In this document: piece after piece, positions 4,127-57,107 of the stretch
Layout of the letters: the number at the start of each line of letters is the position of its first letter
Numbering within the stretch: position 1 is the stretch's first letter
NCBI GenBank assembly: GCA_902523635.1
Contig: CABZAE010000004.1
Location: 45,844-109,843 of the forward strand
DNA: 64,000 bases
Source: an uncultured Bacteroidota bacterium
GTDB taxonomy: Bacteria > Bacteroidota > Bacteroidia > Flavobacteriales > Flavobacteriaceae
Direction of reading: 5' to 3'
The notes under the pieces: model-generated
The model's input: only the letters and a program-made list of their open reading frames with translations
Databases searched by the model: none
What the model was told of the DNA's origin: nothing
Made by a program: the position numbers and the translations under genes

Positions 4127-5421
4127 GAAAAATTAAATACTTAATTATCTGTTTTTTTATTTTTGCCAACTGCTGGTCACAAAAGCAGATTCCTGGTGAT
4201 GATCAAAACAAAACTATCCTTCTTTATAATGCAAAAATTATTACAGGAGTTGGAACTGTTGTTGAAGATGGTTTTTTTGGATTTAGTAATGGTAAAATTG
4301 ATCACCTCAGTATTTCTAAACCAGAAAAAAAATATGATTTAGAAATTGACCTAAAGGGACAACACATTTATCCAGGATTTATTGCACTGAATTCCACGCT
4401 TGGCTTAGTTGAAATAAGTGCTGTTAGAGCCAGTGATGATCAAAGGGAAATTGGTACATTCAATCCAAATATTCGTTCTATAATCGCATATAACGCTGAA
4501 TCAAGAATTGTTGAAACAATGAGATTAAACGGTGTATTAATTGGTCAAATTACACCTAGAGGAGGAGTTATCTCAGGAAGTTCTTCAGTGGTTCAATTTG
4601 ATGCATGGAATTGGGAAGATGCAACTATAAAATATGATGAAGGAATGCATGTTAATTGGCCCAATCCCTACAATAGACCGAGTAGATGGTCTTCTGGATC
4701 AAGAACTGTTACTTCATCAAAAAATTATTTAGATGAAGTCAATAATCTGAAAAATATTTTCAATAAAGCCCTCTCTTACAATAGCGACTTTTCTAAAAAA
4801 TTGGATTTAAAACTTGAGTCGATGAAGAATCTCTTTAATGGACTACAAACATTGTATCTTCATGCTAAGGATCAAAGACAAATCATTGATGGTGTTTCAT
4901 TTTTTAAGTCTCTTGGAATTGATAAGATTGTTGTCATAGGTGGAGATGAAGCGCATCAAATTATTGAATTTCTAAAAAACAATAATGTTTCAGTCATAGC
5001 TTCTCACCCCCACAGATTACCCTCTCGTGAAGACTCCGATGTTAAGGAAGCATTCAAATTAGCTAAAACTCTTGTTTCAAACGGTATCAATTTATCAATT
5101 GATGTCAGAGGCGGAATGGAGAGACCTAACACAAGAAACCTTCCATTTTTTGCAGGTAGTTTCGTTGGTAATGGATTAGATTATGATGCTGCAATCAAAG
5201 CACTAACTATAAATCCTGCAAAAATATTAGGAATTGACAAAGATTATGGCAGTTTGGAGGTTGGTAAAAGCGCGACTTTTTTTGTTAGTAAGGGGGATGC
5301 TCTAGACATGAAAACAAATATTCTTTATCACGCCTTCATTGACGGACGAGAGCTTGAGTTATCGAATCATCAAACAAAACTACGAGACAAATTTTTAGAA
5401 AAAGTTTCGAGAAACAATTAA
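4123..5421 (+). CDS. Amidohydrolase family protein, secreted
   Basis: Signal peptide, LDYDAAIKALTINPAKILGIDKDYGSLEVGKSATFFV; overlaps previous ORF by ATGA. Confidence 0.75.
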   Translation: MRKIKYLIICFFIFANCWSQKQIPGDDQNKTILLYNAKIITGVGTVVEDGFFGFSNGKIDHLSISKPEKKYDLEIDLKGQHIYPGFIALNSTLGLVEISAVRASDDQREIGTFNPNIRSIIAYNAESRIVETMRLNGVLIGQITPRGGVISGSSSVVQFDAWNWEDATIKYDEGMHVNWPNPYNRPSRWSSGSRTVTSSKNYLDEVNNLKNIFNKALSYNSDFSKKLDLKLESMKNLFNGLQTLYLHAKDQRQIIDGVSFFKSLGIDKIVVIGGDEAHQIIEFLKNNNVSVIASHPHRLPSREDSDVKEAFKLAKTLVSNGINLSIDVRGGMERPNTRNLPFFAGSFVGNGLDYDAAIKALTINPAKILGIDKDYGSLEVGKSATFFVSKGDALDMKTNILYHAFIDGRELELSNHQTKLRDKFLEKVSRNN

Positions 5422-7919: not shown

Positions 7920-7943
7920 CTACAATAAATTATTAATATTCTG

Positions 7944-7983
7944 GGGCGCTTAGCTCAGTTGGTTCAGAGCACTTGGTTTACAC
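7944..7983 (+). repeat. attL: truncated 5' half of tRNA-Val
   Basis: gggcgcttagctcagttggttcagagcacttggtttacac identical to 12648-12687; no tRNA 3' half follows. Confidence 0.9.
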
Positions 7984-8061
7984 TCAAGTCCCTACTACTT
8001 TTATATCCCTGTAAAATCCACTTAACAGAGTAGGATATTATAAAATATTGTCATATATTGC

Positions 8062-8105
8062 GATGACCATTGTGATGACCACAGAGGTTTTAACGTGATG
8101 ACCAT
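8062..8105 (+). repeat. Candidate integrase arm-type sites, left end (three copies of GATGACCAY)
   Basis: GATGACCAT 8062-8070, GATGACCAC 8074-8082, GATGACCAT 8097-8105. Confidence 0.65.
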
Positions 8106-8108
8106 TAA

Positions 8109-9785
8109 ATGACAATAGCATTTTTCTTAAAATCCAGACCACTAAAAGACGGGCGCAAAAAAGTAGGTTTGCAGTTTACGTTTAGTAGATACGATAGACC
8201 ACAACAACTTTTAGATATTGCAGTTAATCCTAAATTTTGGGATAAGAATAAAAGTCGAGTTACTGAAGATCATATTGAAAATGAGCATATCAACAGGACA
8301 CTTGCTGAATACAAGCATCGTATTGAAACTGCAACAACCAAGTATGAAAATAAAAGATTGAATAGGGATGGGGTTGTTGACGAAGTAATGAACAGGACAG
8401 TTAACAAGTCGGTTGACAATTACATAAAAACACAACTAAGAAAAGACATTCCTAAAGATGCTACCTATGACAGTTACGTAAATTGGTGGAATGGTTTTAA
8501 AAATATGATTGGTCAAAAAGACAAGACTTTTAAGATTGAAGATTTAATGGTCGAAAGGTTGTATTCAACTGCGAGAAATATAGGAAACAAAAAAGTAAAA
8601 GATGGGGAGATAACAACCAGGACTTATAAGAATTACCTTTCAGTATGTCAGACAGTTTTAAATCACGCATACAACAACAGAAACGTTTATGAACAATACA
8701 TTATTGCAGAGAAGTTTAGAACAACAGAGGTTTTTACAAAAAAAAGTAAACCTATGCACGAGCCTTGGGTTGTACACGATGCAATAAGAGACTTAACTAC
8801 AATAGAGCAATGGCAGGCAGTTTCGTTTTGGGTTATTTCATTTTGTCTTAGAGGGTTTCTTTATTCAGACTTATTAATGCTAAGTGATAAAAAAGTAACA
8901 GACAAAAAAGGTAAAGAAATTGTAGGTCGACAAATCTTTAATGATATGTATTTAGATACGCTTAGAGAAAAGTCTAAGATTAACATTTTTGTTAAAATAC
9001 CTAGAGATGTTTTAAGATTAATAACAATGGTCAAATACTCTTTGGTACATACTAAATTAGACAAGAAACTAAAAGGTAAAACAATACTAGCAGACATAAA
9101 TGATGTACTTAAATTTTATGATTATGACAAGGACACAAACGGAAAATTTCATAAAGGACTTTGGAGGGAGGTTAATAAAAAAACAAAGAAGTTTGGATTT
9201 AGATTTTCGGATGCGAGACAGACATTTAACCAGTATGCTCAAAGAGTTAAGGTTGACAAAGAAACAAGAGAAATACTACTGGGTCACATAGGTCAAAGGA
9301 CTATTGAACAACATTACGACAATTATAAGTTACCAGAGGTTGTTGATGACGTTGATAAGGCTCATAATGACGTCTTAGAGAAGTTTAAAGCACCTAAGTT
9401 GATACAGTTATTGATGGATAAATTAAACACTCTTATAACGCATAATAATAGGTTGCCGAAATGGTTGCTAATGCAAAGTGGAGTTCATAAAGTAGGTAGG
9501 GAGTATAAAGTCTTAACAGGCTTCAAAGATCATAAACCGACTTGGACAAATATTGAATCTAAGTACAAATGGTATTTCAAAAAAGATCAGTCAAAAGAAG
9601 ATGGGTACTGGAGCGACTTAGAAACTTGGTTGGATTCAAAAAATAAAATACACAGCACTGTATTGAAAAATCTTACAGAAAATAAGTGGGTCAAGGAAGC
9701 TAAGAAACAAGAAAAGGAGTTGAAGCAGGCAAATGATTTAAGCAAAGAATTAGCAAAGAATGGTATTCAATATGCTGCAAATTAA
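8109..9785 (+). CDS. Tyrosine-type recombinase/integrase
   Basis: CLRGFLYSDLLML (box I Arg), FSDARQTF (Arg), LLGHIGQRTIEQHYDNY (His and Tyr); adjacent to attL. Confidence 0.88.
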   Translation: MTIAFFLKSRPLKDGRKKVGLQFTFSRYDRPQQLLDIAVNPKFWDKNKSRVTEDHIENEHINRTLAEYKHRIETATTKYENKRLNRDGVVDEVMNRTVNKSVDNYIKTQLRKDIPKDATYDSYVNWWNGFKNMIGQKDKTFKIEDLMVERLYSTARNIGNKKVKDGEITTRTYKNYLSVCQTVLNHAYNNRNVYEQYIIAEKFRTTEVFTKKSKPMHEPWVVHDAIRDLTTIEQWQAVSFWVISFCLRGFLYSDLLMLSDKKVTDKKGKEIVGRQIFNDMYLDTLREKSKINIFVKIPRDVLRLITMVKYSLVHTKLDKKLKGKTILADINDVLKFYDYDKDTNGKFHKGLWREVNKKTKKFGFRFSDARQTFNQYAQRVKVDKETREILLGHIGQRTIEQHYDNYKLPEVVDDVDKAHNDVLEKFKAPKLIQLLMDKLNTLITHNNRLPKWLLMQSGVHKVGREYKVLTGFKDHKPTWTNIESKYKWYFKKDQSKEDGYWSDLETWLDSKNKIHSTVLKNLTENKWVKEAKKQEKELKQANDLSKELAKNGIQYAAN

Positions 9786-9856
9786 ATTGACAAATACAAA
9801 ATATTATTAAATATTCGATATAGTTATACTGGTGGCGCTCCAAGTTAAACGCAACA

Positions 9857-9886
9857 GTTGTTGCCCGCCCATGGCGGGCCTACAAC
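9857..9886. other. GC-rich interrupted hairpin in element intergenic region
   Basis: GTTGT..GCCCGCC-cat-GGCGGGC..ACAAC. Confidence 0.6.
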
Positions 9887-9984
9887 AATAAACAATAACA
9901 AAACAATTACGGGATAAGTTAAGGTTGCTTACAAGTGATCTGCATTGATGATAGTGCGGACATTTAAAGCAAGGTTAGATTAGT

Positions 9985-10020
9985 TTTTTTACCAATGCAT
10001 TGAAAATGCATGGTAAATAA
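9985..10020. repeat. Hairpin repeat copy 1 upstream of rep operon
   Basis: Core ACCAATGCATTGAAAATGCATGGT (9991-10014), identical to 11551-11574; flanks TTT/AAA extend the stem. Confidence 0.85.
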
Positions 10021-10082
10021 AACAAGGTTACTGGCAGAGATGCCTGACAAGAAAATATTATATAAACTGAAGCAGTAAAATT

Positions 10083-10649
10083 ATGGCAATTACAGAGAAT
10101 ACAGAGATCAAAAGTTACTCAAATCACAAAGACAATTTGCTTAAATCTACAATAGACAGCAGCGGCAAAAAACATACCAGGAAAAGAGATAACGAAGGAT
10201 ATATGAAACTTGATAGGAGGTTTAAAAATGGTACACCTTATGATCCTGCAGACTTGCAAAAAAGAAAATATACAGTTAGAGAAAAAAGTAAATATGAATG
10301 GGTCAAACTGCTAACAAAAGAAAAATACAATACACTTGCAACAATACAATTCAGGATGCGCAACAAATATATGTTTGAAGATAAAATGAGACATCTAAGC
10401 GAACATCCAAGATCACGCAGTCTGTTCTATGCAGTTGAGCAAAATGCAGATGGGTTAGGGTATCATATACACTTGATGCTGAAAGCTACAAAAGTAGATT
10501 CTTACAATCTGTCTTATGCTTTAGATATTGCACCAAGTTGCATAACATATTTTGAAAATATTGACAATAACCAAAAGGTCTCGCGGTATGTCAATAAAGA
10601 AATGGGTAGAGACTTAACACACTATAATTTTTATAAAAATGGATTATAA
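10083..10649 (+). CDS. HUH-superfamily replication initiation endonuclease (Rep)
   Basis: Motif I TLATIQF, motif II GYHIHLML (HxH), motif III SRYVNKE (YxxK). Confidence 0.7.
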   Translation: MAITENTEIKSYSNHKDNLLKSTIDSSGKKHTRKRDNEGYMKLDRRFKNGTPYDPADLQKRKYTVREKSKYEWVKLLTKEKYNTLATIQFRMRNKYMFEDKMRHLSEHPRSRSLFYAVEQNADGLGYHIHLMLKATKVDSYNLSYALDIAPSCITYFENIDNNQKVSRYVNKEMGRDLTHYNFYKNGL

Positions 10650-10773
10650 CGATACAATAATATTTAAAACAAGTAAAGAAGATAAAGCAGAGCTTCAAAA
10701 AGAAGCAAATAAATTAAGAGTAAATCTTTCAAGTCTAATCAGATATAAATTATTTTCAGATGGGACTATATAG
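10639..10773 (+). CDS. Small ribbon-helix-helix-like protein (44 aa)
   Basis: MDYNDTIIFKTSKEDKAELQKEANKLRVNLSSLIRYKLFSDGTI*; overlaps both neighbours; not in the supplied ORF track. Confidence 0.55.
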   Translation: MDYNDTIIFKTSKEDKAELQKEANKLRVNLSSLIRYKLFSDGTI

Positions 10774-11005
10774 AGTAAAAGCAGATGCAAACCAACCTGA
10801 AATGCAACATCTCACAGACAAACAGGTCGCGGTGCTAAAATCTACAAAAGAGATGATTCGTCAAAGACTAAAAGTCAGTCTGACTAACAAGGAGATCAAA
10901 CTATTAAGAGAAATAATGGGAGTTGCTGCAGATACCAAAATAGATAGACTTGCAGAATTATTTATATGTCAAACTTTAGAAAAATACAGTAATGGGAAAA
11001 GGTAA
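10760..11005 (+). CDS. Hypothetical protein (element)
   Basis: 81-aa ORF overlapping upstream and downstream genes. Confidence 0.6.
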   Translation: MGLYRVKADANQPEMQHLTDKQVAVLKSTKEMIRQRLKVSLTNKEIKLLREIMGVAADTKIDRLAELFICQTLEKYSNGKR

Positions 11006-11540
11006 AAAGTTCGTACCAATGAAAGTTCACGTGAATGAACAAGGGTATAAATATGCGCAGAAATGTGCCAAAGAAAAATTAGAAATATTATGGGCAGGTA
11101 TGAGCTGGTGTGGGTCTCACATCAATACAGATGCAATAGACAGAAAGTTATTTTTAGATGATATGGTTAAAGAGTTCAGGCGTTGTGTCCAGGAACAAAA
11201 GGGTAAGCAAATGGGAATAAAATTAACAGACGAAAAGATACTGTTCCTATTGGATATCAATGACAGTCCACTAAGTAATTATGCAATGGAGTTTAATAAA
11301 ATAGATGCAGACATTATTGTAAAAGGAGATGATTATGCTAGTATCGTAGATATAGAAAACTTTACTAGGTACACAGAAAATGAAATAGAGAATGAAAAAA
11401 TAATTAGGGGTAACAATCTTATTAAGGCTTTAGATTTAGTAGGAAAATATACTAAGGTTCTACCATTCCAGGTTCAACAGGCTACAAGTAATTTTCTGAC
11501 TTTCGATATTTCAGGCAATGGATATAAAATAAATATTTAA
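10992..11540 (+). CDS. Hypothetical protein (element)
   Basis: 182-aa ORF, last gene of overlapping operon. Confidence 0.65.
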   Translation: MGKGKKFVPMKVHVNEQGYKYAQKCAKEKLEILWAGMSWCGSHINTDAIDRKLFLDDMVKEFRRCVQEQKGKQMGIKLTDEKILFLLDINDSPLSNYAMEFNKIDADIIVKGDDYASIVDIENFTRYTENEIENEKIIRGNNLIKALDLVGKYTKVLPFQVQQATSNFLTFDISGNGYKINI

Positions 11541-11541
11541 A

Positions 11542-11580
11542 GGTTTCTGGACCAATGCATTGAAAATGCATGGTCAGAAA
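11542..11580. repeat. Hairpin repeat copy 2 downstream of rep operon
   Basis: Core ACCAATGCATTGAAAATGCATGGT (11551-11574) with TTTCTG..CAGAAA stem extension. Confidence 0.85.
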
Positions 11581-11587
11581 ACAAGTG

Positions 11588-11642
11588 TAGTAATGGCAGG
11601 TTTTTCTTCTATCATTTCTGCTTCAGTCCCCTGCTGTTACTA
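11588..11642 (+). ncRNA. Putative structured 3'UTR RNA with loop complementary to rep leader
   Basis: 13-bp stem TAGTAATGGCAGG/CCTGCTGTTACTA with two G-U pairs; loop contains CTGCTTCAGT, reverse complement of ACTGAAGCAG at 10066-10075. Confidence 0.4.
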
Positions 11643-11724
11643 TGCTAATAACGATAAAGTAACGAGGTTAATCTGGAACTAGATAATTGTTTTTAAGGTC
11701 AGATGTTTGTAGATTTAGAGTATT

Positions 11725-11874
11725 GTGAGTGTTAGTAAACGTAAATTATCTGAAAAAGAAAAATGGGATATGGTGTCTGGAAAATTTACACCACCACCTA
11801 AAAAAAATAATAACAAATGGATAGCCGTTATAATTATTATAGCTGGTATTCTTATGTTATTATTTGGTTTTTAA
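11725..11874 (+). CDS. Small single-pass membrane protein (49 aa)
   Basis: GTG start; MSVSKRKLSEKEKWDMVSGKFTPPPKKNNNKWIAVIIIIAGILMLLFGF*; not in the supplied ORF track. Confidence 0.45.
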   Translation: MSVSKRKLSEKEKWDMVSGKFTPPPKKNNNKWIAVIIIIAGILMLLFGF

Positions 11875-12152
11875 TTTGTATTGAAAACTTTTAAAAAACC
11901 AACAAGTCCAAAGATTGATCCGAATACAATTTGAGCTGTATCAAAGTGGGTCATAAATAAGAAATTATAACCTTCTATTATGTATTCGTTCGTTATCATA
12001 TCACTATCAATCATAATAAAAGTAAATCCTCTTACCATCCATAGAACGAAGATGCCAAACAGACCATAAACAAAAAACATAACAATGCCACCTCCAATAG
12101 CACCTAAAGTTCTAACAGTTGAGTTTAAGAAACTAAATACAGCTTTAAACAT
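11871..12152 (-). CDS. Small multi-pass membrane protein (element)
   Basis: 93 aa with 2-3 hydrophobic segments. Confidence 0.55.
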   Translation of the reverse strand: MFKAVFSFLNSTVRTLGAIGGGIVMFFVYGLFGIFVLWMVRGFTFIMIDSDMITNEYIIEGYNFLFMTHFDTAQIVFGSIFGLVGFLKVFNTN

Positions 12153-12169
12153 ATCTAAATATACAAATT

Positions 12170-12529
12170 ATGAGATTTCAACAAGGTAACGAATACGGCA
12201 AGCTGTCTAAACGCAGTAAAGATTTATTCAAACAAGAAATCAAGGACAAACTAAAGAATAATGTTTTTGATGTACTTTACAATATGGATGTAACAGAATT
12301 TACTACAAATCAAAAGTTAAAATACTTACAAGTTGTGCTGCCATATCTAACACCAAAATTAAGAATGTCTTATAATAATGATGTCGCTGAAGATGTACCG
12401 CTCTTTTGTGATGAGCCACCAACAATATTGGTATTTAAAAATGCAGAACAGAAGCAAGCTTACGACAATGCAACAGACGAAGAAAAAATAGAAATGGAAA
12501 AGGAATTAGCTATAAAAAATGATAAATAA
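12170..12529 (+). CDS. Possible terminase-small-subunit-like / phage-type small protein
   Basis: RFQQGNEYGKLSKRSKDLFKQEIKDKLKNN...TTNQKLKYLQVVLPYLTPKL resembles basic N-terminal and helical pattern of Bacteroidota TerS-like proteins. Confidence 0.4.
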   Translation: MRFQQGNEYGKLSKRSKDLFKQEIKDKLKNNVFDVLYNMDVTEFTTNQKLKYLQVVLPYLTPKLRMSYNNDVAEDVPLFCDEPPTILVFKNAEQKQAYDNATDEEKIEMEKELAIKNDK

Positions 12530-12573
12530 AACTATATTTGTCAAGCAATTTTAAGCATCAAAATAGGTCTATT

Positions 12574-12594
12574 GATGACCCAAATGATGACCAC
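12574..12594 (+). repeat. Candidate integrase arm-type sites, right end (two copies)
   Basis: GATGACCCA 12574-12582 and GATGACCAC 12586-12594; same 12-bp period as left pair. Confidence 0.65.
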
Positions 12595-12647
12595 AAATAT
12601 TATTTGTAACTTTAAAATTGATGTAAGTGATTGATTATCAGTTACTT

Positions 12648-12722
12648 GGGCGCTTAGCTCAGTTGGTTCAGAGCACTTGGTTTACACCCAAGGGGTCGGG
12701 GGTTCGAATCCCTCAGCGCCCA
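12648..12722 (+). tRNA. tRNA-Val(TAC)
   Basis: Acceptor GGGCGCT/AGCGCCC, anticodon arm CTTGG-TTTACAC-CCAAG, T-loop GGTTCGAATCC. Confidence 0.95.
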
Positions 12723-12785
12723 CGTTATCAAACTATAATTAAATTTTTTTCAATTTAAAAATAGCTTCCATAATTCCTGAATGTA

Positions 12786-55785: not shown

Positions 55786-55859
55786 GCCGATGTAGCTCAG
55801 CTGGCTAGAGCAGCTGATTTGTAATCAGCAGGTCGTGGGTTCGAGTCCCTCCATCGGCT
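55786..55859 (+). tRNA. tRNA-Thr(TGT)
   Basis: Cloverleaf GCCGATG/CATCGGC; anticodon loop TTTGTAA. Confidence 0.95.
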
Positions 55860-55880
55860 CTAGTTGTTCTTTAAAATATT

Positions 55881-55965
55881 GGGGAGATACTCAAGCGGCC
55901 AACGAGGGCAGACTGTAAATCTGCTGTTTTTAACTTCGCAGGTTCGAATCCTGCTCTCCCCACCA
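55881..55965 (+). tRNA. tRNA-Tyr(GTA), long variable arm, encoded CCA
   Basis: Cloverleaf GGGGAGA/TCTCCCC; anticodon loop CTGTAAA. Confidence 0.95.
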
Positions 55966-55972
55966 AATTTAA

Positions 55973-56045
55973 GCGGGAGTAGCTCAGTTGGTAGAGCGTC
56001 AGCCTTCCAAGCTGAATGTCGCCGGTTCGAACCCGGTCTCCCGCT
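55973..56045 (+). tRNA. tRNA-Gly(TCC)
   Basis: Cloverleaf GCGGGAG/CTCCCGC; anticodon loop CTTCCAA. Confidence 0.95.
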
Positions 56046-56083
56046 CAATACACAGATTTTTTTGATATAAAACTAATACCAAA

Positions 56084-57004
56084 TTGAAAAAGGATTTTTT
56101 TAAAAATGTTAGGATCCTTGATGGTGGAATGGGCCAAGAACTATTATCCAGGGGGCTTAAAACCATTGGTACACTTTGGAGTGCAAGCGCTATTTTACAA
56201 GATAATTACCACGAACTAGTTGAAGACATTCATTTAGATTATATAAATGCTGGTTGTGACGTAATAATTACAACTACCTTTAGTACAAGAAAACAAAAGT
56301 TAGTAGAAAATGATTTAGCCCACAAATTTGAAGAATTGAATGTTAAGGCATGTGAAATTGCAATAAATGCCAAAGAAAAAAACCAACATATTTTAATTGC
56401 AGGGGGATTGCCTCCACAAAATGTGGTTTATTCTGCCGATGATAGATCTGATGAAGAAATACTTGAGAATTATTACGATCAAGCAAAGATAATCAACCCA
56501 TATGTAGATTTTTTTTTCTTTGAAGTAGTATCTAGTTTCAGGGAGGCCAAGTTAGCTACTAAAGCAATTGAATCTTTTAAAAAACCTTACTTACTTGGAT
56601 TACATATTTCTGAAGGTAAACTACTACCAAGTGGTGAAAAAATAGCCGCATTGAATGAAAATTTACAAATAAATGAAGCTTTGGGTGTTGTACTTTCTTG
56701 TGTTTCACCAGAAAATTATCTTCTTAATTCAAAAATTTTAAGAGATTTTGAATCTCCTTTCGGTTTCAAACTAAACGGATTTGATTTAACAAATCCAAAA
56801 CTTGGTTATTCAAATATTTATAATAGTGGTGATGTTGATAATCCAAATCTAATTTTGGGCAAGAGGCAAGATCTTGATCCAAAAAAATTCTATGAATTTT
56901 CAAAAACATTTAAAAATTTAGGTGCTACAATTTTAGGAGGATGTTGCGAAACATCTCCAGCACATATTAAAGAAATTGTTAAATTACGCAACACATTAGC
57001 ATAA
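56084..57004 (+). CDS. Homocysteine S-methyltransferase family protein
   Basis: ILDGGMGQELLSRG; VISNTTF-like DVIITTTFSTR; ILGGCCETSPAHI. Confidence 0.9.
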   Translation: MKKDFFKNVRILDGGMGQELLSRGLKTIGTLWSASAILQDNYHELVEDIHLDYINAGCDVIITTTFSTRKQKLVENDLAHKFEELNVKACEIAINAKEKNQHILIAGGLPPQNVVYSADDRSDEEILENYYDQAKIINPYVDFFFFEVVSSFREAKLATKAIESFKKPYLLGLHISEGKLLPSGEKIAALNENLQINEALGVVLSCVSPENYLLNSKILRDFESPFGFKLNGFDLTNPKLGYSNIYNSGDVDNPNLILGKRQDLDPKKFYEFSKTFKNLGATILGGCCETSPAHIKEIVKLRNTLA

Positions 57005-57011
57005 ATATAAC

Positions 57012-57083
<72 letters not shown>

Positions 57084-57107
57084 CAAAAAAATAACTATAT
57101 TTATACC

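Follow-up and report, generated by a model that had tools for sequence, protein, structure and literature searches.

A 4.7-kb integrative element at a flavobacterial tRNA-Val gene, possibly a minimal phage satellite

Little is known of phage satellites in Bacteroidota. In actinobacteria, the actinomycete integrative and conjugative elements (AICEs) combine an integrase acting at tRNA genes with a rolling-circle-type Rep; they also encode an FtsK-like transfer protein and exceed the element treated here in size. The phage-inducible chromosomal minimalist islands (PICMIs) of Vibrionaceae require alpA and a primase and integrate at fis; one of them, PICMI115, is switched on by a virulent phage, forms concatemers of the kind that rolling-circle replication would give and is packaged in concatemeric form, in a report whose main text does not contain the word "terminase" (PMC10803314). 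Tycheposons are counted among the proposed phage satellites (PMC10872708, PMC11389934). Here we describe an element of 4.7 kb in a stretch of 64,000 nucleotides, below called the window, from an uncultured member of the Flavobacteriaceae (assembly GCA_902523635.1, contig CABZAE010000004.1, positions 45,844 to 109,843). The element is inserted at a tRNA-Val gene and carries an integrase, an HUH-type Rep and a gene resembling that of the terminase small subunit (TerS). The reading we favour, at slightly better than an even chance, is that it is a minimal integrative element of an undescribed flavobacterial family, most likely living as a phage satellite.

A sequence-only reading of this stretch had proposed a miniature element of ~4.7 kb bounded by direct repeats in tRNA-Val, and comparison with a relative confirms it. 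Two 48-nt direct repeats (window 7941-7988 and 12645-12692, 46/48 identical) lie 4,704 bp apart, and this spacing is the size of the insertion. The left copy (attL, + strand) is the truncated 5' part of a tRNA-Val in which the anticodon stem ACTTG..CAAGT, read directly, is retained, and the right copy (attR, + strand) runs into an intact tRNA-Val(tac) at 12648-12723 (Rfam tRNA, 72.3 bits). In a congener (G402, locus L036) the left flank is 77% identical and collinear with the window up to position 7988, after which follows one intact tRNA-Val, 76/76 nt identical, with the insert absent. The element boundaries are real, because the collinearity of the G402 locus up to this position is followed by a single tRNA-Val without the insert, and since this empty site holds one identical tRNA-Val, the 5' half of the tRNA in the window is supplied by the element. 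An intact tRNA-Val locus carrying the same genes in a relative had been named beforehand as evidence that would speak against the proposal; the G402 locus lacks the genes. The locus thus shows att direct repeats, an integrase at one end and an empty site in a relative, as expected of a tyrosine-recombinase integrative element. At 31-33% GC the element resembles its flanks, and base composition gives no signal.

Agreement between the two repeat copies ends just beyond the anticodon loop, where TTTACAC is followed by T or C, so that the crossover cannot lie past this point. A second set of repeats marks the ends of the element. The motif GATGACC[A/C] occurs in 7 copies in the 64 kb, and 5/7, all of these on the + strand, are at the element ends: three GATGACCA repeats at 8062..8104, likely the left arm-type integrase sites, and two GATGACC[C/A] repeats at 12574..12593, likely those of the right arm. 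Such a terminal layout is what one expects of arm-type integrase sites.

The integrase (8109..9785, +) is a 558-aa tyrosine recombinase of divergent type, with relatives in the L011 and L123 loci described below. It was predicted as a tyrosine integrase from the letters alone, and the Arm-DNA-bind_5 match (E=2e-5) supports this. The Pfam catalytic domain is unmatched, and the motifs of the catalytic part diverge from the usual ones: the first catalytic arginine lies within LRG, and the histidine of the usual HxxR is substituted both in the window and in L011.

The 188-aa protein encoded at 10083..10649 (+) has the motif pattern of a single-domain HUH endonuclease (Rep), with HxH preceding the catalytic YxxK (GYHIHLM first, RYVNKE near the C-terminus; HIH and YVNK), so that the earlier HUH call held. 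Both motifs are conserved in Rep relatives of 120-190 aa, except in L012, where the N-terminal part is lost at the contig edge, and weak Rep_N and REP_ORF2-G2P matches are found in members of the family. A helicase domain is absent from the Rep, and replication would therefore depend on host enzymes. A structure model of low confidence (pLDDT 47) has the HUH order of elements, beta-alpha-beta-beta-alpha-beta-alpha, and a Foldseek search with it returned Rep of circovirus and of SIRV as weak matches, which we take as supporting only because the model is weak.

The last gene of the element (12170..12529, +) encodes a 119-aa TerS-like protein, assigned from a family profile and from gene position in phages. 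The profile, built from seven members, detects the family in 29/400 sampled Flavobacteriaceae genomes, many of the surveyed genomes being partial metagenome-assembled genomes (MAGs). In 18/41 loci a tRNA or tmRNA gene is no more than 1 kb away from it, and in 14/18 of these the 3' end of the TerS-like gene faces the RNA gene; taking 5% as the expected proximity, which is our own generous estimate, the binomial P is about 2.5e-13. Distant phage relatives are found immediately upstream of the terminase large subunit gene (TerL) in L044, L045, L076, L078, L079/L080 and L116; in L117 the relative precedes TerL by three genes. A protein from a bacterial locus (L066) matches the phage gene of L076 with E=5e-7, and a profile-profile comparison of the element and phage sets aligned 65 columns with 94.7% probability (E=6e-8), the similarity being greatest in the basic N-terminus. 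An HNH endonuclease adjoins the TerS-like gene in L123. In L011 one lies a gene beyond it and matches a PHROG that bears the name terminase small subunit (3e-10); HNH proteins frequently partner terminases. The original TerS-like call is strengthened by the position before TerL in phages, and TerS is the likeliest function of the 119-aa protein as judged from these comparisons, although unproven.

The core of integrase, Rep, ribbon-helix-helix (RHH) protein and TerS-like protein recurs at four loci: in the window, in L010 (MAG NAT161), in L011 (single-cell genome AG-319-B23) and in L123 (G407). The earlier concern that the gene set might never be found elsewhere as a unit is hereby removed. 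The L011 copy is a bounded element of 5.1 kb between a tRNA-Thr(ggt) and an 82% tRNA copy, and its ends carry a repeat of their own (4133-4165 and 9037-9069), unrelated to GATGACC[A/C] and of similar layout. Rep relatives were found in 9/400 sampled Flavobacteriaceae genomes, this genome included, and in 3/22 genomes of the genus. In the order-wide sample the Rep was found in this genome only, and the family therefore looks concentrated in small-genome Flavobacteriaceae. The element is thus a probable member of an undescribed group of flavobacterial elements of very small size, which may travel inside phage particles.

Between Rep and the TerS-like gene lie five further genes. The 44-aa RHH protein (NikA/CopG-like; 10639..10773, +) has a weak NikA/RHH match here (E 0.03) and better ones in its relatives (E 5e-4 and 7e-4), which upholds the small RHH-like protein of the sequence-only reading. 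An 81-aa conserved protein (10760..11005, +) is 26% identical to an L011 homologue in the equivalent position and has family members in L037-L039. It is followed by a 182-aa conserved protein (10992..11540, +), 49% identical to its L011 homologue, for which a convincing match was not found in Pfam, PHROG or PDB and whose AlphaFold model is uninformative (pLDDT 44). The 182-aa family adjoins tRNA-Leu in L037 and L038, frameshifted in the latter, and is present in L039 as a 188-aa gene. The two short transmembrane (TM) proteins also proved to be present: a putative membrane protein of 49 aa (11725..11874, +) and a membrane protein of 93 aa (11871..12152, -), homologues of which adjoin the TerS-like gene in L010 on the opposite strand and in L011 on the same strand. 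Pfam and PHROG scans of all element proteins gave no phage structural or lytic gene, in line with the earlier statement that no capsid or portal gene could be recognised, and PADLOC gave no defence match.

A candidate replication origin, CTGGtGGcGctCCAAGTTAAA (9829..9849, +), lies upstream of rep. Its consensus CTGGwGGygywCCAAGTTAAA precedes rep in the window and L011 only, among 119 loci, and as an exact pattern it was not found in IMG/VR. Two copies of a 39-nt hairpin flank the rep operon on the + strand (9983..10021, region z=-3.6, and 11543..11581). They share a 22-nt core with 2 occurrences in the 1.2 Mb assembly, both in the element, and the lower stem of the second copy is altered on both sides, giving compensatory stem changes between the copies. 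A long hairpin with a 17-bp stem (11584..11647, +, region z=-4.2) lies downstream of the 182-aa gene. The 81-aa open reading frame, the end repeats, the candidate origin and the paired hairpins add to what had been listed from the sequence before.

The following course of events may be proposed. The anticodon region of tRNA-Val would be the place where the integrase recombines, served by arm-type repeats at both ends, and insertion would leave a working tRNA whose 5' half is element-derived. Once excised, the element would be nicked by its HUH Rep at an origin lying between int and rep, and would be copied into concatemers by rolling-circle replication that uses the polymerase and helicase of the host. 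The TerS-like protein would then mark element DNA so that an infecting phage's TerL and procapsid accept it, and the packaged element would be transduced and re-integrate. The RHH and 81-aa proteins might regulate copy number or excision, and the 182-aa and membrane proteins might act in replication control or in interaction with the helper; both assignments are guesses. TerL was found in 0/30 checked genomes, several of them incomplete, when tested with two Pfam families only (PF04466, Terminase_3, and PF03237, Terminase_6N), while named controls matched, and a helper would therefore probably have to come from outside. The same holds for the helper of PICMIs, for which a comparable strategy is reported (PMC10803314).

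Several observations weigh against a satellite life style. Helper phages are not known, and alpA, capsid-size and primase genes are not among the element genes. Searches for Rep in phage and plasmid records, PDB and IMG/VR found no relative, nor did those for the 182-aa and TM families in IMG/VR, which were pattern scans of limited reach. The similarity of the TerS-like protein to phage proteins is concentrated in a short basic N-terminus (GRxKGxPNK), and in Salmonella phage BPS15Q2 the neighbour of the related gene is not a terminase. A rival reading is an integrative rolling-circle plasmid without phage packaging. Such a plasmid would excise, replicate by its HUH Rep and spread by transformation, vesicles or rare generalized transduction, and its TerS-like protein would bind DNA as an accessory to integration, maintenance or replication. 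The evidence for integration and Rep fits it no less, relatives were not found in viral contigs, and the TerS-like gene tends to the att or integrase side, including in the temperate Bacteroides phages L042, L043 and L077, where the related gene stands beside the integrase and away from TerL. Against this, the phage relatives of the TerS-like gene are mostly placed directly before TerL, and the gene is retained where the replication gene appears exchanged: L039 keeps a 72-aa gene of the 81-aa family, the 182-aa-family gene and the TerS-like gene and has a different 332-aa gene at the Rep position, whose product would also be a replication protein. We consider the plasmid unlikely, though the most serious competitor to the satellite. 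The earlier proposal of an undescribed family, either a satellite or an integrative rolling-circle replicon, is supported in that the gene set recurs as a unit.

The HUH protein and the NikA-like RHH protein could instead form a relaxosome, making this an integrative mobilizable element carried by a conjugative plasmid or an integrative and conjugative element. The RHH gene stands directly behind the HUH gene, and its relatives match NikA-like mobilization proteins at the E values given above. Classical relaxases have their tyrosine near the N-terminus. Here the HUH motif comes before the catalytic tyrosine of the C-terminal YxxK, which is the order of Rep proteins, relaxases of the MOB_T type aside; a coupling protein was not seen and a plasmid relative was not found, so that mobilization appears improbable. 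That the element is a remnant of a larger prophage or a bigger island we regard as highly improbable, and this reading is already largely refuted. Other genomes commonly have degenerate and solitary TerS-like copies close to tRNAs, but the present element has clean boundaries and open genes, the same compact core stands at four places, and the checked genomes, carriers among them, lack TerL of both families, which also answers the earlier worry about a degraded larger prophage.

The phage satellite therefore stays our preferred reading. A more far-reaching form of it has, in our judgement, somewhat less than an even chance: an undescribed satellite family in marine Flavobacteriaceae, among the smallest known, would make its own concatemers by HUH rolling-circle replication, divert the packaging of virulent phages with its own TerS, and by repeated insertion build many tRNA-linked islands. 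If true, the pairing of HUH Rep and TerS-like protein within 4.7 kb would show the minimal needs of a helper-dependent element, namely to insert, to concatemerize and to tag its DNA for packaging. Further elements of this kind can be sought in Flavobacteriaceae by means of the TerS-like gene at tRNA ends, which also provides a testable account of the tRNA-linked islands of ocean bacteria without detected TerL.

Some further loci deserve mention. A tRNA-Ala(ggc) island (L100 2474-19000 and L101; G302, contig C2 260-292 kb) holds about five TerS-like copies, of which some are degenerate, together with two Rep genes and a single integrase, and looks like repeated accretion of such elements. In L115 2269-5000 (G344, contig C7) two TerS-like genes, 84% alike and with common upstream and downstream sequence, enclose a cargo gene in a layout resembling a cassette array, and the G344 genome has seven TerS-like copies in total. 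In larger Flavobacteriaceae, TerS-like genes occur in integrative loci (L105/L066, L111/L071 at tmRNA, L068, L113/L073), some adjoining tmRNA, beside a DUF6371/zinc-ribbon protein, primase-like in our reading, or an AAA ATPase. The TerS-like gene may thus mark several satellite-like lineages. It is convergent with the integrase in the bacterial loci L104, L106 and L107 and in the Bacteroides phage L042. The tRNA-Thr/Tyr/Gly/Thr cluster in which the L011 element sits in another genome is also present in the window (55786-57084), with a gap of ~966 bp from tRNA-Gly to tRNA-Thr(ggt).

It remains to place the element among described systems. With AICEs it shares a tRNA integrase together with a rolling-circle-type Rep, and an FtsK/TraB-like transfer domain was not found among its open reading frames. 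The phage-inducible chromosomal islands (PICIs) likewise have an integrase, a replication module, a small DNA-binding protein and no structural or lytic genes, and some carry terS, but they are typically 12-15 kb with a master regulator (stl/alpA/merR), whereas the present element has 4.7 kb, an HUH Rep and no recognised regulator of this kind (PMC6092414). A typical PICI is excluded by this size and by the lack of a recognised master regulator. Charybdis elements are also marine, of ~4.6 kb and virus-like, some integrated beside tRNA genes, but they have Marine Group II archaea as hosts, no recognised replication gene and the hallmark gp3 fold (PMC12324425); we considered them and set them aside, gp3 not being searched here. 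The likeness to PICMIs is that of a very small marine integrative element with an integrase and a replication gene and without capsid genes; alpA, the primase and the fis site belong to PICMIs, whereas here we find an HUH Rep, an RHH protein, a TerS-like gene, tRNA sites and flavobacterial hosts. The defining genes and site of PICMIs are absent, and the element is therefore not a PICMI. Tycheposons are cargo-carrying and of 4-200 kb, and an HUH Rep core is not among the features given in the descriptions consulted (PMC10872708, PMC11389934). They are tRNA-linked, with a tyrosine recombinase, and live in marine streamlined hosts (Prochlorococcus and others; PMC10872708, PMC11389934). The TerS-like loci here likewise form tRNA-linked islands, and the element has a tyrosine recombinase at a tRNA gene in a marine streamlined genome; we claim no membership, and by analogy we see in the tycheposons its nearest ecological parallel (PMC10872708).

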